A stretch of DNA of 64,000 nt from contig JAUKUA010000005.1 of NCBI GenBank assembly GCA_030549175.1, forward strand, positions 3,658,001 to 3,722,000, in the 5' to 3' direction. Under the pieces are notes generated by a model that did no database searches, was not told the DNA's origin, and saw nothing but the letters and a program-made list of their open reading frames with translations. This document shows positions 1 through 36,597 of the stretch, piece after piece (position 1 is the stretch's first letter; every line of letters begins with the position of its first letter). This DNA comes from Lasiosphaeris hirsuta. Taxonomy: Eukaryota > Ascomycota > Sordariomycetes > Sordariales > Lasiosphaeriaceae. The position numbers and the translations under genes were made by a program.

Positions 1-1830
1 CCTTTCCGTAAAGATGACTGGCAACGGGGCCGACACAGTGGTGAAGACGTCCTGCTTACCGTCGAGGAAGGTATCGGGACAGTGTCCGGGGGCGATTCGC
101 ACATCGAACCGCCAGAGCAGCTCGGCCACCAGCCGCCGGATCTCTATCAGCGCCAGCCGCTTGCCGACACACCCGTACGGGCCTGTCTGCGTCAGCTGAG
201 GTGCGGTGAAAAAGAAGGGAGGGTAAGGAAAAAAAAAAAAAAGACACATACCGGTATTGAACGGGATAAAGACGGATCGGTCCCGGATCAGCTCAGGCCG
301 CGTGGTCCAGCGCTCGGGGATGAACTCGTTGGGCTGCGCAAACGCGCGCTCGTCTGTTCACGGATTAGCAAAGATATATTCCCATGAATAAGCGGGAAAT
401 AATAGGCCACGCCAACGCACCCCGGAACACGGTGTACGACGGCACCTGGACAATGGTATCCCCCGGGATGAAATACCCGGCCTTGCCGCCGATGCGCAGG
501 CCCTCGGGCGGGGTGACGCGCTGGGTGCCCGAGGGCACGGGCGGGTGCAGGCGCATGGCCTCGTTGATGACGGCGTCGAGCAGGCCGATGGACGCAAGCC
601 GGTCGTGGGCGAGGTCGGGCAGCGCGTCGAGCTCGCGCTGCAGCGTGCGCACCAGGGCCGGGTCGTAGGCCAGATGGAAAAACACGTAGGTGAGGGTGGC
701 GGCCACGCTGTCGCTGCCCGCGATGACGATGAGCTGCGCGTCCCCGTGCAGGTTGTACCGATCCCGTTTTGTCTGCGGGCTCTGCCGGTACGCGTTGAGG
801 ATCCACGAGAAGATGTCGGGCCGCGCCGGCTCGTCGGCGCTCCGCTCCTCGACCTTGCGCTGGATCCAGTCCCAGAACTGCAGGTAGTTGTTGTTAAGCA
901 GCGGCGTCCGCTTGAGGAACGGCAGCAGCCAGGGCAGGTGGGTGAAGAGGGCGATGTTGAACATGTCGGCGCGGATGGTCTGGAAGATGTACGTCTCCTT
1001 GCCGTCGCCCAGCATGTTGGACGACTTGTTGAAGGCCAGGTCCTCGATGATGTCAAAGGCAAAGTAGGCGAACCAGTCGTTGACGTCGAGGGCCCGGCCC
1101 GCGCCCGCGTGCTGCCGCACCACGCGCAGGAACTGGTCGATGGCCTTGGTGATGCGCGGCTCGTAGCCCTGCAGCGCCTTGGTGCTGAAGCCCTGGTCCC
1201 ACACCTTGCGCCGCCGCGCGTGCTCGGCCTTGTCGCGCGCCATGAACAGCGGGATCCGCGGCTCCAGCAGCGTGTACCACGGCCCCTTGGTCACGGGCGA
1301 CTGGCTGCCGTAGATGGCCTTGACGGCCTCGGGGTCGGCAATCGACAGCTCGCGGGGGCCTGGGAAAACGAGTTAGACCCCATCCCCCCCCCTCCCCCCC
1401 TTTTCCCCCGACTGCGTGAGAAATTGAGGCACTCACCTAGCCGGACGACGTCGCCGTACCGGACATGCAGCTTCTGCACCTCCTCAAACATGTGCAGCCG
1501 CTTCATGGACAGGGCCGTGATGTAGAAGTTTGTGAGTCGGGCTAGCACGGGACCCGGGTACCCCCTGAGGCGATGGAGGAATGCGCGGTAGAAGAGCATG
1601 CTGCCGTACAGCCCGGCGCCGTGGCAGCCGCTCAGCCGGGCAATCTCCAAGATGGGGACGCGGAGGAGCTCGAGGTGGGACGCCAGCGCGCCAGCCGAGA
1701 GCAGAGACACATAGGTCAGGAAGATGGAGGGCGACGTTACGTCCCACTCGCCGATGCGGAAGACAAAGACGTGGGCGGCCACGCCGCTGGCGACGGCCAG
1801 CACGGCGGCGAGGTTTTCGAGCACCATCAT
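1..1830 (-). CDS. Cytochrome P450 monooxygenase (3' end off window)
   Basis: Heme-thiolate monooxygenase, probably ER-anchored by its hydrophobic N-terminus and probably oxidising a terpenoid made by the divergent neighbour. Four exons fit: 1830-1437, 1359-421, 353-252 and 182-1, with introns of 77, 67 and 69 nt (GTGAGT, GTGCGT and GTATGT donors). They encode 539 residues without a stop, so only a short C-terminus is missing. Visible motifs are the I-helix AGSDS (about 345-349), the K-helix ExxR in NEAMRLHPP (398-401), the PERW motif in FIPERW and the heme loop FNTGPYGCVG with Cys about 483. The start is the double ATG at 1830/1827 before a hydrophobic stretch. It resembles fungal secondary-metabolism P450s with an FSTKALQGYEPR-like segment; I cannot fix the CYP family. 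The substrate is inferred from context only. Confidence 0.93.
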
Positions 1831-3716: not shown

Positions 3717-6688
3717 ATGGCTGTCGGCACCACCCCCTTTCTCCTCTCCGTCATCCAGACCTGTTTCTCGTGGATCAAGGACGTCAAGAATGCCTCCAAC
3801 ACCAAGCTCAGCATCAATCTGCTCCGCCGGTCCTTGGGCACGGTCCCCAAGGACCCAAAGGACCCCGAGAAGGCGTCCGAGTCCTACAAGACCGGGCCCG
3901 TGGACTCGCCGGCGGAGCGGAAGAGCATCGCCATCAAGCTAAAGAAGCACGATATCAGTCTCACAGTAAGCATCCCCCATCCGCCCCCCAATCCGCCGCC
4001 CATCCGTCGCCCATCCGCCCCCTCTCCCCCCCTCCCCTCCCCCCCCCCGAGTCAGCACTAACCCAGGTCACAGCTCCAAGTCCCCGAGTTTGGCGACGCT
4101 CGCCGCCCGGCCGAGACGGAAGCCTCGGCGCGGGTGCTGCTGGCGCACTCCGAGTTTAAGGCGGCGCTGGTGCCAGGCGTGCTCCCGACCGACGCCTTCT
4201 ACGACCAGTGCGCGGCCGAGGTGCAGACGATCCGCACCTTCTTCCCGCACCTGGCGTCCGAGGCCATCCACACCGTCTTCGCGGCCTGGCTGACCTTTGT
4301 GTGCACCATGGACGACATCCTCGAGACGCTGCCGGCGGCCGTGGGCGAGCAGGTGCTGGCCGAGAGCATCCAGATGGTGCAGGGCCGGCCGCTGGACAGC
4401 GCCGTCCCGGGTGCTGCCAGCGACACGCGCATTCAGGGCCTGACGCGGGTCCTGTACGCGCACGCTACCGCGCTGCTTTCCCCGGCCGGCGCGCGCGCCT
4501 TCTTTGGTGCCGCGCAGGCCGTGCTGGAGGCGCACGTGGACGAGATACGGTTCCTGCAGGGCGGCCTCCCGCGCGACCTGGCCACGTACCTGGGCATCCG
4601 GCGGCGCACCATTGCGCTGGCGCCCTTCTTCGAGGTGCTCAAGAGCGAGTACCTGCCGGCCGGCTTTGCCGATGGCGACGCCACCGCCTGGGCCCAGCTC
4701 CAGACCGACGTGTCGTGCGCGGCCGGGCTGCAGAACGACCTGATTGGGCTGGAGCGCGACCTCGAGGGCGGCGAGCAGTTGAACGCCGTCGTCGTGCTGA
4801 TGCGGGGCAGCAACCCGCACGCCGGCAGCGCCGCCGCCGTCGACGAGGCGCTGCTGACGCGCTGCGTCGGCCTGGTCGCCGCCGAGCACAACAAGGCCGT
4901 AACGCGGTCGCTCGCCCACGCCGCGCGCATCCTGAGCACCGCCCGGGACGCGGCCCCCGCCGCCGCCGCCGCCGTCGCCGCCGTCGCCCGCCACATTATG
5001 CTCCTGTCCGAGACCCACCTCACGTGGTGCGCCGGCTGCAAGCGCTACGACATGGCCGCGGGCACCCCGCCGCCGCCGCCGCCGCCACTGGCAAACGCGG
5101 ACCCAGGAGTCACCGCCGTGATGGGCCCGCAGCTCGCCCCGCCCCGCGGCATCTACCACGGGCTGCCCACGTACCCCGCCAACGCGCCTGCGCTGCGCGG
5201 CCTGACGGCCCTCGTCACGGGCGCCACGGGCGTGTCGGGGTACCAGATGGTTAAGGTGTTGGCGGCCGCGCCCAAGCGCTGGGCCAAGGTGTACTGCCTG
5301 AGCGCGCGGCCGCCGCCCGATAACTTCTTTCGTGATCTCGGCGAGGGTGCGCGGCGCGTCGAGCATATCGCCATCGACTTCCTGGCCGACCCGGCGCTGA
5401 TTGCGCGCCAGCTCAAGGACAAGATCCCAAGCGTGTAAGTGGTGGCCCCTCGGGGAGTGTTGTCGGTTTTTTTTTCCGGGGGGCATTGCTAATCTCGAAG
5501 GGGGAAAAAAAAAGGGACCATATCTTTTACTTCTCCTACATGCAACCCGCGCCAAAAGGCAACGTGCTCGACCTGTGGGCCAACGCCGACGAGCTGGCCA
5601 CGGTCAACTGTGCGTTCCCTCCCCCCCCCCCCCTCCCCTGAACGCAGTCCCAGCTCACCAACACCACCACCAGCAACGCTCTTCACCAACTTCACCACGG
5701 CCCTCCAAAAAACCCAGCTCCGGCCGCGTCGCTTCATGCTGCAGACGGGGTCCAAGCACTACGCCTTCTACCTGGGGCCGGCGGCGCTGCCGGCCTTCGA
5801 GTCGGACGCGCGCGTGGCGCTGGCGCGCAACTTCTACTACGAGCAGGAGGACGCGCTGTTCCGGTACTGCGGCGCCGTCGGCGCGCGCTGGACCGTCGCC
5901 CGCCCGTCGTACATTGTCGGCGCCGTGCGCGACGGCGCGCTCAACCACCTCGTCGGACTCGCCGTGTACGCGGCCGTGCAGGCGCGTCTGGGCCGCCCGC
6001 TCGCGTTCCCCGGCGATTACCGCGCCTGGGACCGCGAGCAGGTCCAGAGTACCGGGGGGTTGAATGCGTATTTTGAGGAGTGGCTCGCGCTGGCCGAGGG
6101 GGTCGAGGATCAGGCGTTCAATATCCATGATGGCCTGTCGTTCACCTGGGGGCGGCTGTGGCCGCTGCTCGCGGGGTGGTACAGCGCCGCGTGGGCCCCG
6201 CCCGAGGCCGATGTGGCCAAGTACCGTGCTGTCACGCTGCCGTATCCCGAGACGCCGAGGGGGTGAGTTTCCTTTTTTTTTTTTCTTCTTCTCTTCTTCC
6301 GTTTGATTGTTTGTGGCCATTGGGAGATGGTGGCTGACCTGGTCTGCTGTGTGCTAGTCACGGCCCCCAGATGACGCTCAACTCGACCTTTAGCCTGCTC
6401 GAGTGGTCGCTCCGGCCCGAGGTCGAGCAGACCTGGGGCGACCTGGCGCGCGAGCACGGTCTGGTGCTGGACCCCTTCCACGACCGCTACCGCGCGCGCA
6501 TCTTCTCCTTTGCCGACTCGGCCGTCATTGGTGACGCCCCCATGACTACCAGCGTGCGCAAGGCCCGCCAGTTTGGCTTCTTTGGGACTGTAGACTCGTA
6601 TCATTCCATTTTCGATACTCTGCATGAGCTGGCGCAGCTGAAGCTCGTCGTCGCCCCGGTCGTGAATCAGTTTGATTTCGCGTCTTGA
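3717..6688 (+). CDS. Class I terpene synthase fused to PRISE-family short-chain reductase
   Basis: Five exons fit: 3717-3965, 4074-5434, 5515-5609, 5674-6262 and 6358-6688. They total 2,625 nt (874 aa), and all junctions keep frame. Residues 1 to about 410 look like a class I terpene cyclase: metal motif DDILE (163-167), an Arg cluster in GIRRRT, an NSE-like NDLIGLERD (304-312) and a C-terminal RY pair (407-408). A proline-rich linker (415-421) follows. Residues about 450-874 are an extended SDR: nucleotide-binding TGATGVSG (glycines 466, 469, 472), then LQTGSKHY with the probable catalytic Lys596, and NFYYEQED (621-628) with the probable catalytic Tyr. Those two motifs mark the progesterone 5-beta-reductase/iridoid synthase-like (PRISE) family, which reduces enones or enals. 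Exon 2 runs unbroken through both domains. Inferred role: one polypeptide that cyclises a prenyl diphosphate and supplies a reductase for a later oxidised product. Product unknown. Confidence 0.9.
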
Positions 6689-7241: not shown

Positions 7242-9272
7242 ATGGACCCCAACTGCCCGTCCATCTCGCTGCCGTGGCGGTGGGGCAACCGGGGCCCAAA
7301 CTCCAACCCGGCGTGTCTCGCGTGCGGGTGGAGCGGCGACGACGGCCGGCTGACCGAGGACTTCCCCGGGTGGGCCATCCCGGCGGGGTCGGGCAACGCG
7401 CGCATCGCGCGGTCGGCCAAGCGCGGCTGCCTGCGGTGCCAGATCATCGTCGAGTGCTGGAAAAAGGTCGGGCCCGACGCCCGCTTCCACTACCACCACC
7501 ACCACCACCACCACCACCACCACTACCAAGCTCCCTGCTGGGAGCTGTTCCACGTGCCCGCGCCCGCGCCCGGCCCCGCCTCCCGCCTCGCCGGCGTCAC
7601 CTCCTACGACGCCCTCCCCAGCGGCGACACATCCTCCCGCGCCGCCCTGGCCTGGGCCGCCGCCCAGCTGCGCCGCTGCGACCAGAAGCACCGGTGCCGG
7701 CCGCCGCCGTCGTCGTTCCGCCCGTCGCGCGTGGTGGACGTCGGGGCGTTCTCCGGGACCGGGGCCGGGTCGCACGACGTGGTCGTGGTGCCGGGCAGCC
7801 GCATGGAGAGCGGCGAGTACGTGGCGCTGAGCCACTGCTGGGGGGCGCGGCGGCACGCGCCGGCTTGCGCGACCACGCGGGCGTCGCTGGGCGAGCGGCA
7901 GGCGCGGGTGCCGTGGAGCGCGCTTCCGCCGACGTTCCGGGACGCCGTCGCGCTGACGCGCTGGCTCGGCAGGCGGTACTTGTGGGTCGACGCGCTCTGC
8001 GTCGTCCAGGACGACGTGCACGACTGGCTGCGGGAGGCCCGGCGCATGCACGGCGTGTACGAGGGCGCGTGGCTGACCGTGGCGGCGGCCTCGGCGCCCG
8101 ACGCCCGCGCCGGTCTGTTCGCCGCCGACCCCCCGCCCGCCCACGTCGTCACCCTGCTCCACGGGTCCCTGCCCTTCGCGCTCTACGCCCGCCCGCTCCG
8201 CAGCCACATCTTCGGCGGGGCTCGCGGCGAGACCGCCGCGCGCGAGCTGCCGCTGCTGACGCGCGCCTGGGCCCTTCAGGAGCGCCGACTCGCCCCCCGC
8301 GTGCTGTACTTCACCCAGCGCGAGCTGGCGTGGGAGTGCCGCGAGGCCTGCGCCTGCGAGTGCAACCGGTTCCAGCAGCCGCCGCCGCCGCCGCCGCCGC
8401 CGCGGCGCCGCAGCAGCCCCGGGGCCGACAGGCATGCGTCTACCATCCCCGTCCCCGTCCCCGAGGACGACCCCACCAGCCGCTGGCACGCTGTCGTCAG
8501 CGAGTACACGGCCCTGAAGCTGGCGCGGCCCGGCGACGTGCTGCCGGCGCTGGCCGGGCTCGCGCGCGAGGTGGCCCGCACCCGCCCCGGCGAGACGTAC
8601 CTGGCCGGGCTGTGGTCGGGCAGCCTGCGGGCGGATCTGATGTGGTTCTCGCGGCGGGCGCTGGCGGCGGGTCGCCGGCCCCGGCCCCGGCCCCGGCTCT
8701 GGTGCGCCCCAACGTGGTCCTGGGCGTCGCTGCCGTCGTCGTCGCCCGGGCCGCCCTCCGAGGCTGCCTTCTTTGACTACTTTGGGGTCGAAGGGACGCC
8801 CCTGTTCCATGTTGACGACGCGTCGTGCCAGCTCGTCTCGGACGATGTGTTCGGCCCCGTCGAGGGCGGCCGGCTGGTGCTGCGCGCGCGGCTTCTCAGG
8901 CGTGCCGTCGCTAGGCCCCATCCCAGGGTCCGGCGCGCCACCAACTCGCCGTGGTACCCTGAGTGGGTTATGGAATTTGGGGCGGTGGAGATGGAGTTTG
9001 TGCCGGATGTGACTTTGGTCGGCATGGGCCGCCATGTGGATGGTGTTCCGACAGTCTCTAACCTCGTCCTCCTCGCTGGCGTCTTGGCGACGAGGAAGGA
9101 CGGGCTACACCAGACGGCCCCCAAGTACCATCTCTCCTGTCTTGTCGTACGCGAGATGGAGCCCGACACATATGAGCGTGTCGGGCTGGCGAGGATGCAG
9201 GGGCATGACCCGGCGGTCATGAAGGAGTTTTACCGGCAGTTTGGGGAAGATACAAAAGTCGTCATGGTTTGA
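7242..9272 (+). CDS. HET-domain protein
   Basis: Single-exon ORF of 676 aa starting at the first ATG (7242). The HET domain (heterokaryon incompatibility, PF06985 type) starts near residue 190. It shows YVALSHCWG, a TFRDAVALTRWLG segment, YLWVDALCVVQDD and the MHGVYEGAWLTVAAASA block. A Cys-rich N-terminus (PACLACGW, KRGCLRCQI) is common in this group. HET proteins act in non-self recognition and cell death in fungi. Two low-complexity insertions stand out: a run of about 12 His (codons around 7494-7524) and a polyproline run (around 8382-8402). Both are CAC or CCG repeats and may be length-variable. The strongly GC-rich composition matches the neighbouring terpenoid genes and there are no RIP-like stops. 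The partner or trigger is unknown. Confidence 0.9.
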   Translation: MDPNCPSISLPWRWGNRGPNSNPACLACGWSGDDGRLTEDFPGWAIPAGSGNARIARSAKRGCLRCQIIVECWKKVGPDARFHYHHHHHHHHHHYQAPCWELFHVPAPAPGPASRLAGVTSYDALPSGDTSSRAALAWAAAQLRRCDQKHRCRPPPSSFRPSRVVDVGAFSGTGAGSHDVVVVPGSRMESGEYVALSHCWGARRHAPACATTRASLGERQARVPWSALPPTFRDAVALTRWLGRRYLWVDALCVVQDDVHDWLREARRMHGVYEGAWLTVAAASAPDARAGLFAADPPPAHVVTLLHGSLPFALYARPLRSHIFGGARGETAARELPLLTRAWALQERRLAPRVLYFTQRELAWECREACACECNRFQQPPPPPPPPRRRSSPGADRHASTIPVPVPEDDPTSRWHAVVSEYTALKLARPGDVLPALAGLAREVARTRPGETYLAGLWSGSLRADLMWFSRRALAAGRRPRPRPRLWCAPTWSWASLPSSSPGPPSEAAFFDYFGVEGTPLFHVDDASCQLVSDDVFGPVEGGRLVLRARLLRRAVARPHPRVRRATNSPWYPEWVMEFGAVEMEFVPDVTLVGMGRHVDGVPTVSNLVLLAGVLATRKDGLHQTAPKYHLSCLVVREMEPDTYERVGLARMQGHDPAVMKEFYRQFGEDTKVVMV

Positions 9273-15142: not shown

Positions 15143-16500
15143 CTAGTACAGCTTCTGGCTGCGGCGATACTTGAGGCCCTTCTTGTACGTCGACCCGATC
15201 TCGCCCCACTTGATGTTGCTAAAAGTGACCTCGGGGTTGGGCTCGACCTTGACGACGGAGCTGGGGTTACCCTCGGTGGTGTTGCAGGGCCCGGCCTCGC
15301 CGGCGTCGAGCCAGGTCATGTTGCCGCCCTCGTCCCACCAGATGGAGGTGGCGAGCACCATACCGCGGGCGAGGGCGTCACCCATGCCGGGGGTGCCGCC
15401 GAGCCGGAGGTACGAGTCGGACTTGGTGGCGTTGCAGAAGGCGTCGTTGAGCGCGCTGACCTCGGGCAGGCCGGCCGACTTGACGACGTAGTTCTCAATC
15501 ACCTTTCCGTCCTGCACGTAGACGCGGTTGATCTCCTTGAGCCGGCCGTCGGCCCCCGCCGGGAACTGCGTGATGACGGTGAAGGGCCGCAGCGTGTTGA
15601 CCTTGAAGCCGTCGCCGCGGCCAAAGACGTTGTCGATCTTGACCCGCCGCGGGTTCCACGCGCACCCGTTCTTGTCGCACACGCCCGCCGACTCGCACTC
15701 GGCCCCCGTGCACTGGTACAGCCCCGGCTTGCTGCACGTGTGCGGCGCGATGTGGTTGGACCGCGAGTTGGCCTCCCAGATGTCCATCTCGTTGCAGCAC
15801 GAGCCCTTGCCCTCGATGTTGCCCTGATTTCATTCGGGTTAGCACTACGTCCAAGGTGAATTCAGGAGGAGAGGGCCTAGGGGTGAGCACTTACCACGCC
15901 GTTGATAAAGGGCGTGACGAAGCACTGCGCATCGCAGTACCCGGTGCCGTAGTAGGCGCCGCCGGTGTTGAGGGCGCTCTTGCCGCCCTCGGCCTCCATC
16001 TCGGACAGGTACAGGGCGCTGTTCATGCCGCAGGGCAGCTTGGAGGCCTCGACGTCAAACGCAAACTCGCGGCCCGTCAGCTGCAGCATCTCGTACTTGT
16101 GCTCGCTCGCATCCAGCAAGTACACGCGCGGCGAGACCACCTTGCCGTCCAAAATATGCTGCAGCCGCAGTGCCGACCCGGCCGTGGTCACACCGTACCG
16201 GCTGTAGTCGGCCACGCCCTCCATGACGCAGTTCTGCTGGCACGTGGCGGCGTCGGGGCACGCGGTCGCGTTGGGCTTGTTGCCCCAGTCGCCGCACCCG
16301 CGCGCCGCGTCGCCCGCCTGGTGCACCGGGTGCGCCAGCGCGTCCAGCACAATGTAGTTGGTCGCGTCCACGCACCCGCCGCTGACTGTGCACCGCTGCG
16401 TCGTAATCTTGGGGTGCACCTCGAGCGTGCCCGTGCCGGGCCGCTGCGCGCCCGCGAGCCCCGCGAGCAGCGGGCCGAGGAGGAGGAGGGAGCGGGCCAT
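15143..16500 (-). CDS. GH7 endoglucanase (cellulase), secreted
   Basis: Exons 16500-15895 and 15823-15143, split by a 71-nt intron (GTAAGT...ATCAG), encode 428 aa. A signal peptide ARSLLLLGPLLAGLAGA precedes the mature start near QRPGTG. Family 7 hallmarks are GGCVDATNYIVLD, ACPDAATCQQNC, GREFAFDVE, CGMNSALYLSEM, GYCDAQCF and the catalytic block CCNEMDIWEANS. In that block E214 is the expected nucleophile, D216 the assisting residue and E219 the acid/base. Many cysteines match the family's disulfides. The C-terminus ends soon after the catalytic domain with no linker or cellulose-binding module. Length and missing module suggest an endoglucanase (beta-1,4-glucanase acting inside cellulose chains) rather than a cellobiohydrolase; that choice is inference. 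Confidence 0.93.
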
Positions 16501-18805
16501 GGTGTTTGTAAGTAGAATATGCTGTGAGGGTGGGTGGGTTGTTGGCGGTGACGTGATCCGGCGTGGTTGTGGTGGGCGGGCGATTGTCGCGTATAAGTAC
16601 TCCCCCTCCCTCCCTCCGAGAGGCCATTCACATCCGCTCCTCGGCCACTTTGCGTTCCCTACGTCTGTAGGTAGCTCTGAGTGCCCACCCGTGTCGGCAG
16701 GGTCCCGGAGGGGCAAGGAGCGAGCGCATTTCCCGCATGCGATTGGCGGGAGCTGGGCCGCCGCCGGCTGGCTCCACGATTGTTGGTGTGCGGGGCCAGG
16801 CGATGGGGCCCGACTCTCCGCCGTAGAGAGCCCCTCAGCGGTTTGGCCTGATTGAGCGCATCTTTGGCGGATGTATAGCCGACTCTGACAGAAACATCGT
16901 CGGCCAAGACGGCCAAGGATCACTGCGGATATTAACCGCCCGAGATTTCCCCTGCCGGAACGGGCTAGGCCACCTCACCATCCGTGCTTTGAATGGGACG
17001 GAAGCAAGGGCAAAGTTGGGGAATTGCCGGCATCCTTGAAGGACTCTCAGTGATGAGAAATATCATGGGAGTGGATTCGTGTTGACTGGAAAGGGGGGCA
17101 GCCAAAATTCGAACCGAAATCTGCAAAGACGGCCATCAATATGTCATGCAGGACCATCTCCCCTCTCGCGCAACAGGTAGTGGCAGGGAACTTTTAATGA
17201 CGAGTGAGTTCTATGAATAAGCCCTGTCACATGACGGCTTCCAAGTCGTGTCTTGACTGCCCAGGTCATGCCTCACATTCTGAAATTGCTGTTGGCTGTC
17301 CCCGGATACACCCAGCGCTGTTTTCTGGAAAATTACCTGGGTGCTCAAGACACTATAGACGCCACCAAGTTTTGTCTAGAGTGCCTCCATGGAAACTCAG
17401 CGCCCGATCTGTCTCTCGTCAATTTGCATCTGTCTATTCGATTTGGTGCCGTGGTTGGACTGGGGCGGCCCAGCATGCATATATACTAACGGGTCATGCA
17501 GGTACTGCTGTCGAGAGGATCACGCTGGGTCCATCATATATCGCCCGCTATTTCCCGGACTGCCTAGACCGAGCATTTCTCTACCCACCTAGAACACATT
17601 TTTTCAAGTAGGATTGCCGGCAAAGTTAAGCTGGCAAAGTTAAGCCGGCCCGCAGCCCTCAACTTATTTACTAGGTGCCTACTCTCCTATTTTTCTACAA
17701 GTCAGGTAAGCATAATGCAAAAGTAGCGAAACCGCATTAAGGAGCAGTAAGGTTAGTTTTGTCAAATTGAATTTAGTCTAGTGATTAACGAGACCCTATG
17801 CCTAATGCCAATCCTAAATACTACCCGGGCCGCCGCGACCCTAGACAGAAAACAAAAGCTAACCCACATATGCATAGGTTGGCGATGCCGCTGTCGATCG
17901 ACGCAAGCTCGGCATTGGCCGCGTCTCCCGACTCCCACCAATTCTCTCGGCATCAATCTCGTCTTCCTTCCTCGACCAAACACGGTCTAGAATCCAGCGT
18001 ATGGGTATGCAACGTCCAAGCATGTGCCGGCCCGATGTCCGGGTCTGCATGTGCGACTCTCCAACGTTCTGCCGCAATCCCATATACCTCTGCGTCGTTG
18101 CCTTGTCATCTAAATCACGCGCCCTCTCTAGGCCCGACTCCCACACGACCCGTCCGTCGGCGGCGGTGCAGTAGAGCCGCGCGTGCGCGACCAGATTGCG
18201 GGAGAGCATCTCCTCTGTATCCTCCTTGGAAGTGTCAGTCACCCTTCTTTCCAAATTTGAAAGTGCTATTCACAGTGGTCAGTGTTCGTGGAATATTAAC
18301 CACATATCTCCCCCTCCGGAACTATGGCAAATCGGGCAGCAGTCAGCAGGGCGATAACCAAGGCTCCGGGGCTGGCTGTGGGGCTCACCGAAATCCTCGC
18401 GCCATTTTGTGGAAACGTCTCGAGAAAGGACCGTAGGTCGCCGGGTTTCGTCGCCGCGTCAAAGATGATGGTCCCCATGATGCGGACTAGAGGTAGCGGT
18501 AGGGAAGATGTTGGAGGAGAGAAGGTTCGCGACAGCCTGCGAAACCCCTGCGAAACCCCTGCGAAAGCCTGCCTCATTAGAGAGACTAACCTGGGTTAGG
18601 TTGCTGCCGTGTAACCACACGTGTGCGGGGCATGATCCAAATCAGCTTGGAGGCTGCATGATGAGGACGCCCAAGCCTTAGTTAGAGCCAATGGCTAGGT
18701 AAAATACTAACCTGGGCACCCCCCCCCCCCCCCCCCCCCCCTTCCCATCGCTCTACCAGACCAAACTTCACACATGACCAAAATCATAACGGTAGTCCCG
18801 ACGCC
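16501..18805. other. Intergenic region with possible decayed coding pieces
   Basis: The first 200 bp is the GH7 promoter side. At 17612-17660 the unit GGCAAAGTTAAGC occurs twice. Minus-strand ORFs at 17859-18254 and 18296-18577 (GTIIFDAATKPGDLRSFLE) look protein-like but match no family I know and have no good gene model. A C-homopolymer of about 20 nt lies at 18719-18740. Confidence 0.4.
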
Positions 18806-22275: not shown

Positions 22276-25200
22276 GTGGAGGCAGTAGGCTTGGCAGCAA
22301 GCATCCTGACCTTCATCGACGTTAGATGCAAGGTTGCCAAATGCGCATACGAGATTCACCACTCAGGTTCGACTGACGAGAACACGCGAATCTTGGCCCT
22401 GACTCAAGACTTGGAGAAAGCGGCCATTAGTCTCAAGCACGACCCGCTACTCGTCCAAGACTATGAGCTATTGGATATTTGCGCAAAATGTCGAGAGGAA
22501 TCGAAGAAGCTGGTTGCCTTGCTCAATACACTGCAAGTGCAAAAAGATGCGGGCAGGTTTCGAAAACTGCAGGTCGTCGCAAAGGGACTTTGGAAACAAA
22601 AGAATATCAAAGATGCTGAACACTCCTTGGAGGAGTATCGCGCGGCGATTGGCATGCGTCTGTCTGCAATTCTCTGATGCGTTTTCAGGTCATCGCTCGG
22701 TCCTCAAGTACCTGACCTTATGTTGCTAACCCCACATCCTGCAGCAAGGAGCAGTCTTCCACAAGAAATCTTTTGAATTCCATCCTGAGGAATGCAAAAG
22801 AAATGGCAAACGCCAATGGGAGACAACTTGAAAAGGTCCAGAACAAGGTCGGCGAGTCTCTTGGCCGTCTCGAGAGCCTCGAGCAGTCGGGCGACGAATT
22901 AGCCCGGCAGCTGAAAGACCTCCAAGCTATCACGGAAGCGACGCGGCAGGGAAATTACATTCTTCGGAGGCTCCACTTTGCTCAGATCTGTCAGCGAGAA
23001 AGTGATGTCAAGGTTGCGGAGCAAGACACGTTCGGATGGATTGTTGGTGATCCGGAACCCCGTCGCTCAGATACCGCCCGATGCCGTGCATTCAACAGTC
23101 TGCGCTGCTTCTTGCAATCCGACGGCTCCATCTTCTTCTTCTGTGGAAGGCGGGATCGGGGAAATCAACCATGATGAAATTTCTCAGCAGACACTCCGCT
23201 GTCCGCTCAGGTCTTGAGGAATGGGCCGACGGTAAAAAACTCATCATGGTGACCATGTTCTTCTGGAACGCCGAAAGTCGACTTCAAAGAACGGCCGAGG
23301 GATTCTACAGGACGATTATCTTTCAGACGCTCAGCCAGTGCCCAGAGCTTGTTGCCGGTGTGTTTCCGACCGAGTCGCCCACGAAACCCACCGACCTCGC
23401 AATCATCGCCCCCTTTCCAGTCGGGGAGCTCGAGGAAGCCTTTGACCGACTTGTCAAGTTGGGTGGCACTCAGAACGACTTTCGGTTCTGCTACCTCATC
23501 GACGGTCTGGATGAATACGATGGTGATAACCAGAGTTACCGTGCTTTAGCCAAACAACTTGTGAGGTGGTCCAGTCTCGACGGAGTTAAGATCATCTGTT
23601 CCGCTCGGCCGTATACTGTCTTTCGGGACGCCTTTCGGGACGCTGGTACCACACTCGAGTTTGACGAGCTTACCCGGCAAGACATGTTCACCTTTGCGTC
23701 TCGGCAGTTTGCACTACACCTCACACATTCCGTGCCGCCGATATGTCGGGATGCCTGCTTAGCATCCGTGGACCGGATTGTCACCCGCGCAGACGGTGTG
23801 TTCTCATGGTCCAGTCTCGTGGTTCGCTCGCTTATCAACGGGGCTCTGGACGAAGACACGGTGGATAAACTGGAAGAGCGGCTTGAGGAGTGTCCTGACA
23901 AGATTGAAGACATGTTTGAAAAGATGCTTTCCAAGGTCGACCATTCTCCCTCGGTCCGTCGCTGGTCCAACACGATCATGTATCTTGCCGCGTACAACCC
24001 CATCCAGTCGGCCCTGAACGCGCTTACGCTTACTTGGCTCGATGATGCTTCCTGGTTCGAAGATGGGAACCTTGGCAGCTTTCCTTTCAACCAGCAGCCC
24101 CGGCCGTATACGGAATCCGAAGTTGTCGTGAAGCACGCCTACGCTCGGAAACTCCTCCACTCACTGACGCAAGGCCTGCTAGAGCTCAAAGAGGCGACTT
24201 GTAGTGATCAAATCCAATATTTTCGATACAGTATCGGGTTCTTCCATCGATCCGTCGTCGATTTTCTTCGAGGCCACTGTCGCGAACCCTTCGGATGCCA
24301 GTCCACACTCGCCGAGGTGTACGGTCGTTTGCGCGCCGCCGAGGTCAAGTTCCTGAGCTTGGCTCCCGAGGAGGATTCTCAGCAACTCAAACTAGCGCCC
24401 TCCGTCACCTACTTATACGAGTACACATTCTTTTGGCTTGGTGAACTTGCTCGAGGATGCCACTCCCTCTCCTCCTCTTGTCTTGGGGAATTTGAGCAAG
24501 CAATCACGTCGAATGTTCCTCGGATATCGTGGGGTAGCCCAGACAGTGTGGTTTCACCTTCAGGGGCTTTTTGGCTTCTCGTATTCAGGGGAACGATGCG
24601 CATTGGGCGTGAAAGATCGTACAGATGGGAGATCTGGGACAGAGGTGCTTGGCCTATGATTGGGTGCTCGTTTCTGCATTGGGCAAGCTATTGGTTCCAG
24701 GGACGTCACTTTCGAGACCAACTTCGCGCCTGCGACGTCTTGGAGGAGCTCAGCATTTTGCTCTCGTCATCGCTCGCATCAGATGTGGAGACAACAAAGT
24801 TTCTCCTAGACCAGGGACGACGCCCAACAGATCGCATTAGAATCCACTGCTCCGGCGACAAGCAACAACGGTATTCAGTGTGGGCGGTATTTCTCAGGGA
24901 CTTTGCGAATCTCGTTAACCAACATGAGCGAAAGGAGAGAGCCCGCCGGGAGTGGCCGATCTTCCTTGACAGCTCCTGGCTCAACAGACTGTCAGCTATC
25001 ATAGAGCTGTACCTTGATCTTGGAGCCGACCCCGACGCGTATTTTATTGTTAATATTTTAGAGGATACTATCGGAACTACCCTTACAGCCGTGAGGCGGA
25101 GAATTCTCCTGGTAACGTTGGTACAAATGCTGGAGGTGTTTAAACCGGAGAACTTGTCCAGCGTTCAGAAGCTTCTAGGCGGCACGCAAGTATTCCCGGG

Positions 25201-25318
25201 AGAGGCGTTGTTGCCCTCCCCTCAGCTTCTTGAGGAGGAAGACTGGCACATTCTGGGTGTTATTTTGCCGGGCTGGGATGAATCTCTGAGGGACCACTTC
25301 CAAGTTCGGGTATTTTGA
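22276..25318 (+). pseudogene. NACHT-type STAND protein gene, broken in its P-loop
   Basis: The N-terminal part (from 22276) reads AVGLAASILTFIDVRCKVAK, like the N-terminal domain of fungal STAND proteins; no ATG is found in frame. An in-frame TGA at 22675 can be avoided by an intron 22662-22744 with a weak GTCTGC donor. A coiled segment follows (LEKVQNKVGESLGRLESLEQ). The P-loop GKAGSGKST is split: reading into it ends in one frame near 23143 and continues in the +2 frame, one A short of GGAAAG. The NACHT core then runs intact to 25318, with Walker B YLIDGLDEYDG (about 23490-23522) and VKIICSARPY. No ankyrin or WD repeats are visible. Intact relatives act in non-self recognition and cell death. 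Either a true null allele or an assembly error; I lean to pseudogene. Confidence 0.7.
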
Positions 25319-35175: not shown

Positions 35176-36498
35176 TTAGTCCACAGCAGTCAGCATAGGT
35201 GTTGGAGAGCTGCCTTGGTGGTTAGATATCCGGCCTTTAATAAGGTCTCTCTGTGAGGTAGCTTCTCGGGCGTTGTGTGGTGTCTGAGGTAGCCAAGGTG
35301 ATGCTGTATCTAGATCTAGTTGTGAGGTTGGTGGAGTTAGAGTTCGAAGCCGAATAGTCATCTTAGAAAGTACCCTATCTGGATCATACGGTATAAGGCC
35401 AGCTCCGGCAAATGCTCCTTGGATGTTTTTGTCCATAAAGGCTGTAAAAAAAGCCTTTTTAAATGCACAGAGAAAATCTACCTTAGTAATATGTGTGATG
35501 TACATCCGCATCAACTCCTCGATTTGATCGCCATAAGCCTTCTTCAATGGCCCAAAACAGCCAATATCTAGTGGCTGGACTAGATGTGAGGAATGTGGAG
35601 GCATACAGAGCGTGATAATGTTATACTTCTTACAATAATCCTCGAATTCTTCGGAGTGGTGGCTTTCGTGGCCGTCAAGGACTAAAAGCCGATGTGTCCC
35701 CTTCATACGAGATGTTGTATGAAGATCGAAGTGTTGGATAAAATTTAGGCCTTTCGCATTCGTAGTCCAGCCGTTGTCGGTTACTCCAATGTACCAGGTC
35801 TCTGGAAGGCCACATTGGTACCAGCCCTCCTGGTGGTATTTCCCTTTTAAAAGGATAAATGGTGGGATAGCCCAGCCTTGAGCATTTACCGCCTGGATAA
35901 CTGTAGCCCACTCACGATTGCCAGGTTGTACTTTTTTAGCCTTCCCATAGCCGTCAGAGGTGGTAACAACCATTCCAGTAGTAATCATACCCATCATAAA
36001 GCCAGTCTCATCGAAGTTGTATATATCGTCGTCAAGGATGCCGTATTTAGCCTTAGTATTATGCACAAGCGTAAACCACTTCCGAATAACCTCTGGATCT
36101 TCGCATTTAGCCCTCTGGTAGTCGTATCTACGCGAAAAACGCGTCCGGAGTTCTGGTTGGCGTTTGACGAAGTTGTGAGCCCAGAGCTTGCCGACAGGGG
36201 GCGCCTCGCGTTCGCGTAGCAGTCGGTTGGCCATATCTTCCACAAAACGAAGCCGAGGAAGAAATGCACGCGTACATAGCTCGGAAATATACTGAACAAC
36301 TGTATGCTCCTCAAGATCCGTAAGTTTGCGTGAGTTGGCTGGAATATCGCGTCGTGCAGGCCGGCCGGCGCGTCGGAATCGGAGGGTATCTTTGTCAACC
36401 TCGTAGATCCGAGCTATAGCTCGGACTTTAAGTTTTGGGTCTCTTTGAAGAGCTCCGAGGGCTAGGTTTATCCTAGCCTCGTACGAAGGCGTTGCCAT
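35176..36498 (-). CDS. pogo/Fot-type DDE transposase
   Basis: 440-aa ORF starting at the ATG at 36498. Residues about 5-125 hold the helix-turn-helix/CENP-B-type DNA-binding region (LALGALQRDPKLKVRAIARI, then FVEDMANRLL and LWAHNFVKRQPEL). The DDE_1 catalytic core follows: D163 in YNFDETGFMMG, D275 in LVLDGHESHH and D311 in HLVQPLDIGCFGPLKKAY, the DDD triad typical of pogo-like enzymes. It cuts and pastes the element using the flanking 48-bp repeats. A TAA stop at 35174-35176 ends this ORF directly before an in-frame zinc-knuckle tail. Relatives usually read on into such a tail, so the stop probably arose from CAA by C-to-T change. Activity of the truncated enzyme is uncertain. Confidence 0.88.
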   Translation of the reverse strand: MATPSYEARINLALGALQRDPKLKVRAIARIYEVDKDTLRFRRAGRPARRDIPANSRKLTDLEEHTVVQYISELCTRAFLPRLRFVEDMANRLLREREAPPVGKLWAHNFVKRQPELRTRFSRRYDYQRAKCEDPEVIRKWFTLVHNTKAKYGILDDDIYNFDETGFMMGMITTGMVVTTSDGYGKAKKVQPGNREWATVIQAVNAQGWAIPPFILLKGKYHQEGWYQCGLPETWYIGVTDNGWTTNAKGLNFIQHFDLHTTSRMKGTHRLLVLDGHESHHSEEFEDYCKKYNIITLCMPPHSSHLVQPLDIGCFGPLKKAYGDQIEELMRMYITHITKVDFLCAFKKAFFTAFMDKNIQGAFAGAGLIPYDPDRVLSKMTIRLRTLTPPTSQLDLDTASPWLPQTPHNAREATSQRDLIKGRISNHQGSSPTPMLTAVD

Positions 36499-36597
36499 CG
36501 TTTGTTGTGGTGGAACTTGGTGGTTTGTATAAAGGTGGGGTGTCGCGTTGAAAAGTGGCGCGCTCGCTTATATGGCGCGCTCGCTTATAAAACACGT

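Follow-up and report, generated by a model that had tools for sequence, protein, structure and literature searches.

Two main groups of fungal fusions between a terpene cyclase and a second domain are named as known in the excerpted text of a review (PMC10175467), and the prenyltransferase–terpene synthase (PT-TS) type is the only two-domain fusion in the excerpted text of another paper (PMC10563020). Here we describe a gene of the fungus Lasiosphaeris hirsuta, located in a 64,000-nucleotide stretch of its genome (the window), whose predicted product resembles these chimeras in that a terpene cyclase domain is fused to a second catalytic domain. It differs from them in its partner: theirs makes or cyclises the prenyl chain, whereas here it is an apparent NADPH-dependent C=C reductase of the PRISE (progesterone 5-beta-reductase/iridoid synthase) family, able to act only later. 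In the haloacid dehalogenase (HAD)-like terpene cyclases AstC, AacA, DrtB and AsDMS, a cyclase is likewise fused to a later-acting, phosphatase-like domain, and trans-domain transfer has been reported, according to the available extracts of PMC13244436. Unlike the L. hirsuta fusion, however, these enzymes combine class II cyclisation with a phosphatase, have no redox domain and carry out two consecutive steps, which is not the case for the steps that we propose below for the cyclase and PRISE domains. The system closest in kind is EutB of Actinobacteria, a terpene cyclase fused to a domain named as a reductase and encoded in a cluster with cytochrome P450s; in the extracts of PMC11574762, that domain belongs to another reductase family, hydroxymethylbutenyl diphosphate (HMBPP) reductase, is truncated, lacks most catalytic residues and is proposed to serve as a lid. 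The plant PRISE enzymes, progesterone 5-beta-reductase (P5betaR) and iridoid synthase, share 22–28% identity with the second domain in structure alignments, but the fungal domain is fused to a cyclase.

In the fungal chimeras that we found described, cyclisation is combined with the building of the chain, another cyclisation or the removal of phosphate, and we found no later redox step among them. A search confined to open-licence papers, which is weak evidence of absence, returned no description of a cyclase–PRISE fusion, and the available part of PMC8403587 held nothing relevant. A first-pass annotation of this locus had known of no described fusion of this kind; this holds in the sense that we found no characterisation in the open-licence literature, although deposited records already display the architecture. 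The domain architecture reported here is real and conserved, includes a non-canonical metal motif that is itself conserved, and is undescribed as far as the open-licence literature shows.

The splice model places the gene in five exons on the forward strand, join(3717..3965,4074..5434,5515..5609,5674..6262,6358..6688), and its predicted 874-aa product matches a deposited L. hirsuta protein (Sordariales, Lasiosphaeriaceae) at 100%. All introns are GT-AG. Intron 1 has four frame-open options, of which the pair of donor 3965 and acceptor 4074 reproduces the deposited protein. Exon 1 (3717..3965) encodes an N-terminal extension and, by alignment, the conserved start of the cyclase domain. In exon 2 (4074..5434), a single open frame runs from the cyclase domain through the linker into the NADP-binding start of the PRISE domain. 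The PRISE domain continues through exon 3 (5515..5609) and exon 4 (5674..6262), the latter encoding the catalytic Lys and Tyr, and exon 5 (6358..6688) supplies its C-terminal part, which gives a weak second-stretch match to P5betaR, and the stop codon. An uninterrupted frame of 458 codons (4062–5438) spans the linker together with most of the cyclase domain and the beginning of the reductase, so that neither an intron nor a stop separates the two domains; if left unspliced, it ends in Val-stop, since the donor reads GT|GTAAGT. The linker (5049..5198) is approximately 50 aa long with a poly-proline run, and the predicted structure has a local confidence score (pLDDT) below 50 at residues 406–445. 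It includes an in-frame ATG at 5121..5123 (M433), close to the start of stand-alone PRISE proteins, which may be a relic of an ancestral PRISE start codon. The first-pass annotation had proposed that a single exon at 4074–5434 joins the cyclase metal region, a proline linker and the TGATGVSG motif, and that the motifs LQTGSKHY and NFYYEQED lie in later exons. Both points are borne out, with the two motifs in exon 4, and the stop between the domains that would have spoken against a fusion was looked for and is absent from the junction frame. The observation of a fusion is confirmed and, as read from the gene model, strongly supported.

The architecture is not peculiar to L. hirsuta. Of 7,993 candidates scored in a protein search with the 874-aa product, 30 proteins were returned. 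The first 24 of these, P0001–P0024 (797–881 aa), are near-full-length fusions, the query among them, with 97–100% query coverage except for P0024 (87%), and the 23 other than the query are 53–77% identical to it. By name, 23 of the 24 are from Sordariales and the remaining one, P0014, is from Xylariaceae sp. FL1272; the orders are those to which we take these fungi to belong, except for Lasiosphaeris and Cladorrhinum, which were looked up. Automatic record names vary, several reading 'Iridoid synthase' and others 'isoprenoid synthase domain-containing protein' or 'NAD(P)-binding-like protein'. Eighteen further proteins span the junction from the RY pair that ends the cyclase domain to the TGxTG motif, and P0040 is another. 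Fourteen of the 18 end in Val 71–74 residues past the start of the TGxTG motif, at the same splice point, and are probably unspliced exons of the same gene structure. The fusion is therefore conserved in 24 near-full-length and 18 junction-spanning proteins, which answers the proposal in the first-pass annotation to look for it across fungal genomes. We aligned 27 of the 30 returned proteins, omitting P0026, P0029 and P0030; P0025 and P0028 lack the N-terminal part. In these 27 rows, the linker measures 43–86 aa and contains no Met in 10, so that a PRISE start from a linker AUG is impossible in those rows. The N-terminal extension of exon 1, of approximately 45 aa, is present only in P0001 and P0002. 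The proteins P0028, P0030, P0050, P0051 and P0052 form a distant junction-spanning group with a linker of 43 aa, which may represent a lineage in which the fusion is old or arose separately. Within the L. hirsuta genome, intron-blind searches scoring the best candidates only found no second copy of either clade at E ≤ 0.01: all four matches to a stand-alone PRISE and the sole match to a stand-alone cyclase fall in the fusion gene.

Both domain assignments are supported by family models and by fold. Residues 155–330 match the terpene synthase family PF19086 (Terpene_syn_C_2) and residues 462–739 the PRISE family PF22917, each above the curated Pfam cut-off, and solved structures match the folds of both. 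PF19086 is found in 27 of 27 aligned rows and PF22917 in 26 of 27. Among solved structures, the relatives of the second domain reduce C=C bonds, and it matches iridoid synthase and P5betaR equally well; together with a Lys and a Tyr in place of the Ser-Tyr-Lys triad of short-chain dehydrogenases/reductases (SDRs), this places it in the PRISE family. The first domain has the family match and the fold of a class I terpene synthase. It does not have the canonical NSE/DTE triad, and we accordingly classify it by its Pfam family and its fold rather than as a canonical class I cyclase. At E ≤ 1, only PF19086, PRISE, Epimerase and NAD_binding_4 match the 874-aa product; these four models include neither a prenyltransferase domain, as in PT-TS enzymes, nor a HAD phosphatase, as in HAD-like cyclases. 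NCBIfam gave weak matches far under its cut-offs (pentalenene synthase, isoafricanol synthase, an encapsulin-cargo cyclase and an SDR), which we did not use.

The cyclase domain has an unusual second metal-binding motif. The first, DDILE (4311..4325; D163, D164 and E167), is of the usual aspartate-rich DDxxD/E type, and DDxxE is present in all 25 rows that cover it, the other two of the 27 being gapped there. The second, NDLIGLERD (4734..4760; N304, G308 and D312), was aligned with the motifs of solved cyclases and is non-canonical relative to (N/D)Dxx(S/T)xxxE, with Gly at the second place and Asp at the third. N304, D305, G308 and D312 are present in 27 of 27 rows, as are R259 and the R407-Y408 pair that ends the domain (5043..5048). 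When a profile of nine stand-alone relatives of the cyclase was compared with caryolan-1-ol, pentalenene and labdane-related synthases, D312 stood opposite Glu and G308 opposite a residue other than Gly (Ser in two of three). Gly and Asp also occupy these places in all 59 proteins, fused or not, that passed a cyclase filter (of 166 collected), but because these are near relatives retrieved with the window's own protein, the pair is a clade trait rather than an independent sample. As a control, we examined 11 further synthase loci in the L. hirsuta genome (L004–L006 and L008–L015), three of which (L006, L009 and L014) have no readable motif. The remaining eight have Ser and Glu in six cases, Ser and Asp in two and Gly in none. 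The two with Asp at the usual Glu place are L012 (NDIASFKKD, clear) and L013 (NDLHSNIRD, less sure). The Gly is thus the real peculiarity of the clade, and the contrast with other synthases is weaker at the third place. The invariant NDxxGxxxD site offers a way to test whether Gly and Asp can replace Ser and Glu in a working class I synthase.

The PRISE domain begins with the dinucleotide-binding motif TGATGVSG (5217..5240), identified from the splice model and alignment. LQTGSKHY (5739..5762) holds K596 and NFYYEQED (5829..5852) holds Y623, equivalent to the catalytic Lys147 and Tyr179 of Plantago PmMOR; this equivalence was drawn from alignment and from V150, I156 and D163 as named in the available part of PMC6172241. 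R495, Q592, K596 and Y623 are all present in 27 of 27 rows, and the Lys motif occurs in 48 of 49 stand-alone PRISEs of at least 400 aa. According to the same excerpts of PMC6172241, changing Lys147 of PmMOR abolished activity and Y179F was not testable, while some reports give the Lys little importance in Catharanthus iridoid synthase. Across the 27-row alignment, we saw no loss of catalytic residues in either domain, and at the level of sequence both active sites are retained.

In some Xylariales and Hypocreales, the cyclase and the PRISE exist as two separate proteins. The nine stand-alone cyclases used here (43–51% identity) come from Xylaria, Nemania, Clonostachys, Cladobotryum, Conoideocrella and a record named Lasiodiplodia mahajangana, and stand-alone PRISEs are 64–73% identical in the same genera and Thozetella and 37–61% in Aspergillus, Exophiala, Sporothrix and others. 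Five of the nine cyclases have a listed PRISE from the same species whose longest contig is of equal size, a pairing read from record listings. The species are Nemania abortiva, N. bipapillata, Xylaria longipes, Conoideocrella luteorostrata and Cladobotryum mycophilum, with cyclases 43–50% and PRISEs 65–73% identical to the query. Their proteins belong to the same two clades as the fused domains, and the cyclases share NDxxGxxxD, but cyclase and PRISE are separate proteins. Their locus tags follow directly on each other in N. bipapillata (g3431/g3432) and Conoideocrella (000176/000177), and those in Cladobotryum (00027/00029) differ by two. When two proteins are encoded by neighbouring genes in some fungi and as one fusion in others, this usually signals a shared pathway. 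The conserved fusion and the unfused pairs therefore suggest that cyclase and reductase serve one terpenoid, and they provide a handle for genome mining.

Trees of 37 cyclase and 77 PRISE rows, picked by length from three protein searches, bear on how the fusion arose. In the PRISE tree, one branch with 100/99 support separates 25 fused and nine separate rows from the 43 others. The nine comprise the five partnered PRISEs, three from Clonostachys and one from Thozetella; they were grouped because they are top matches, so their clade is no independent test. A Clonostachys cyclase was found, but in a different Clonostachys species, and none was retrieved for Thozetella. In the cyclase tree, the 26 fused rows require three changes of fused state. 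With P0014 included, the approximately unbiased (AU) test rejected a single fused clade (p = 0.000167); with P0014 left out, a single clade was not rejected (p = 0.357). One origin of the fusion, apart from that in FL1272, is possible on these trees, with an ancient fusion followed by splitting as the alternative. The gene would most likely have been born from two adjacent pathway genes by loss of a stop codon and the intergenic stretch.

We consider it reasonably likely that this gene encodes a bifunctional terpenoid enzyme, whose cyclase product would be oxidised by a P450 and then reduced at a C=C bond by the fused PRISE domain. The candidate P450 gene lies at 1..1827 on the reverse strand (PF00067, E = 1.6e-34), with its first Met at 1827, a frame open past base 1 of the window and the heme-ligand segment PYGCVG at approximately 180. 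It is divergent from the fusion gene, with 1.9 kb between the starts, and we propose it as a pathway partner by position only, in this one genome. In the first step, the N-terminal alpha-helical domain, judged by its fold and motifs, would bind a prenyl diphosphate through DDILE and NDxxGxxxD with Mg2+, ionise it and release a terpene, either cyclised or rearranged. The next enzyme would be a P450, probably that of the divergent gene, oxidising an allylic carbon to an alpha,beta-unsaturated ketone or aldehyde, whose C=C bond the PRISE domain would reduce with hydride from NADPH, using Tyr623 and Lys596. PRISE enzymes require an activated C=C bond, whereas cyclases release hydrocarbons or alcohols, so the simplest order is cyclisation, oxidation by the P450 and reduction. 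Because the fusion would join the first and third of these steps, its gain is more likely to be equal dosage and co-localisation than direct transfer; it would hold both enzymes at a 1:1 ratio on a flexible linker. The first-pass annotation had suggested a reduction after P450 oxidation or, as an alternative, a part for the SDR domain in a second cyclisation; this interpretation is partly supported, in that the adjoining divergent P450 fits the former suggestion, the chemistry of which stays conditional. We infer the chemistry of both domains, substrate included, from sequence and hold the function with moderate confidence. If this reading is correct, the fusion would open a new path to fungal terpenoids, one that can be put to the test.

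Several observations weigh against this reading. With Gly for Ser and Asp for Glu in its second metal motif, the cyclase domain may work slowly, catalyse a different reaction or have no activity. With a P450 acting between its two domains, the fusion could not simply pass its product on from one to the other. For four of the nine stand-alone cyclases, no partner PRISE on an equal-sized contig was found among the matches listed, where 90% clustering may conceal one. Some deposited models are odd: the usual exon-3 stretch is missing from P0020, P0021, P0027 and P0028, and the usual C-terminus is missing from P0024, P0025, P0027 and P0028. Mis-annotation is the likely cause, with decay as the alternative. 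P0021 is the relative from Thermothelomyces thermophilus, a workable industrial fungus. Finally, the FL1272 protein (P0014) groups with unfused Xylariaceae in both trees and its linker includes the start sequence of separate PRISE proteins; it may be a nascent fusion of recent and separate origin, or annotation may have merged two genes.

The same question of merged genes can be asked of the window itself, where two adjacent genes might have been read as one, as P0014 may illustrate and as the ATG near the ancestral PRISE start would allow. This is extremely unlikely here. The junction lies inside one 458-codon frame, the 24 codons from the RY pair to the ATG leave scant space for a terminator and a promoter, and the further proteins that span the junction, most with the same splice-point end, as well as the rows without a linker Met, argue against it. 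Given the open frame and the junction-spanning proteins, we reject such an artefact both in the window and across Sordariales as a whole; P0014 may still be one. A genuine fusion could nonetheless contain a PRISE domain that is merely a structural partner or lid for the cyclase. In the excerpts of PMC11574762, removal of the truncated HMBPP-reductase part of EutB lowered production by more than 35%. The reductase of the fusion, however, is full length and retains Lys and Tyr in every aligned row, whereas EutB has lost most of its catalytic residues, and separate PRISE homologues endure as independent genes; a lid role is very unlikely.

Two other alternatives concern the cyclase. The domain might not be a cyclase at all, its NDxxGxxxD motif marking a prenyltransferase that acts on an acceptor, like DabA of the same fold, or a loss of catalysis. 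We regard this as unlikely, since the third-place Asp is not specific to the clade (two of eight other synthases in the genome share it), Asp is able to bind Mg2+, and the invariance of the motif, with DDxxE, R259 and the RY pair kept, points to retained function. Alternatively, the domain could make an acyclic terpene alcohol, which the P450 and dehydrogenases would convert to a dialdehyde for reductive ring closure by the PRISE domain. Plant PRISE-type reductases serve iridoids and heart-active steroids, plant geraniol synthase makes an acyclic terpene alcohol, and the plant iridoid route employs a class I synthase, a P450 and a PRISE, which is the set of enzymes seen here. That a PRISE can catalyse the reductive cyclisation of 8-oxogeranial has precedent in the excerpted text of PMC6172241, and the equal structural matches to iridoid synthase and P5betaR would suit this chemistry. 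Yet stand-alone fungal PRISEs are widespread, also in genera without such a cyclase among the matches listed, so that a PRISE alone is no pointer to iridoids, and the complete cyclase fold and RY pair suit an ordinary cyclase. An iridoid-like route is thus rather unlikely. It is slightly less probable that the fusion is a self-contained fungal counterpart of the plant route, in which the altered metal site yields the acyclic alcohol and the PRISE domain closes the ring after the P450; if it were, iridoid-like or larger cyclopentanoid terpenoids would have arisen independently of plants.

The surroundings of the fusion gene were surveyed by a Pfam scan of 20 selected reading frames. Less than 10 kb upstream of the window, in a stretch designated L002, lie genes for two FAD-type enzymes, a berberine-bridge-type oxidase (FAD_binding_4/BBE; L002 1374–3024) and a DAO-type oxidoreductase (L002 8210–9181), which are possible further oxidising enzymes of the cluster. 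Also upstream, in L003, are frames that by eye resemble an aldehyde dehydrogenase and a zinc-type dehydrogenase. On the other side, directly downstream of the fusion gene, a HET-domain (heterokaryon incompatibility) gene runs from its ATG at 7242 to 9272 on the forward strand and contains a run of His codons at approximately 7490–7525. Farther into the window are a glycoside hydrolase family 7 exon (15880–16974, reverse strand), a NACHT/NPHP3-type NTPase frame typical of fungal NLR-like proteins (23051–25315, forward strand) and a DDE_1 transposase frame open across 463 codons, with a weak match to a Tc5-type DNA-binding domain (35179–36567, reverse strand).
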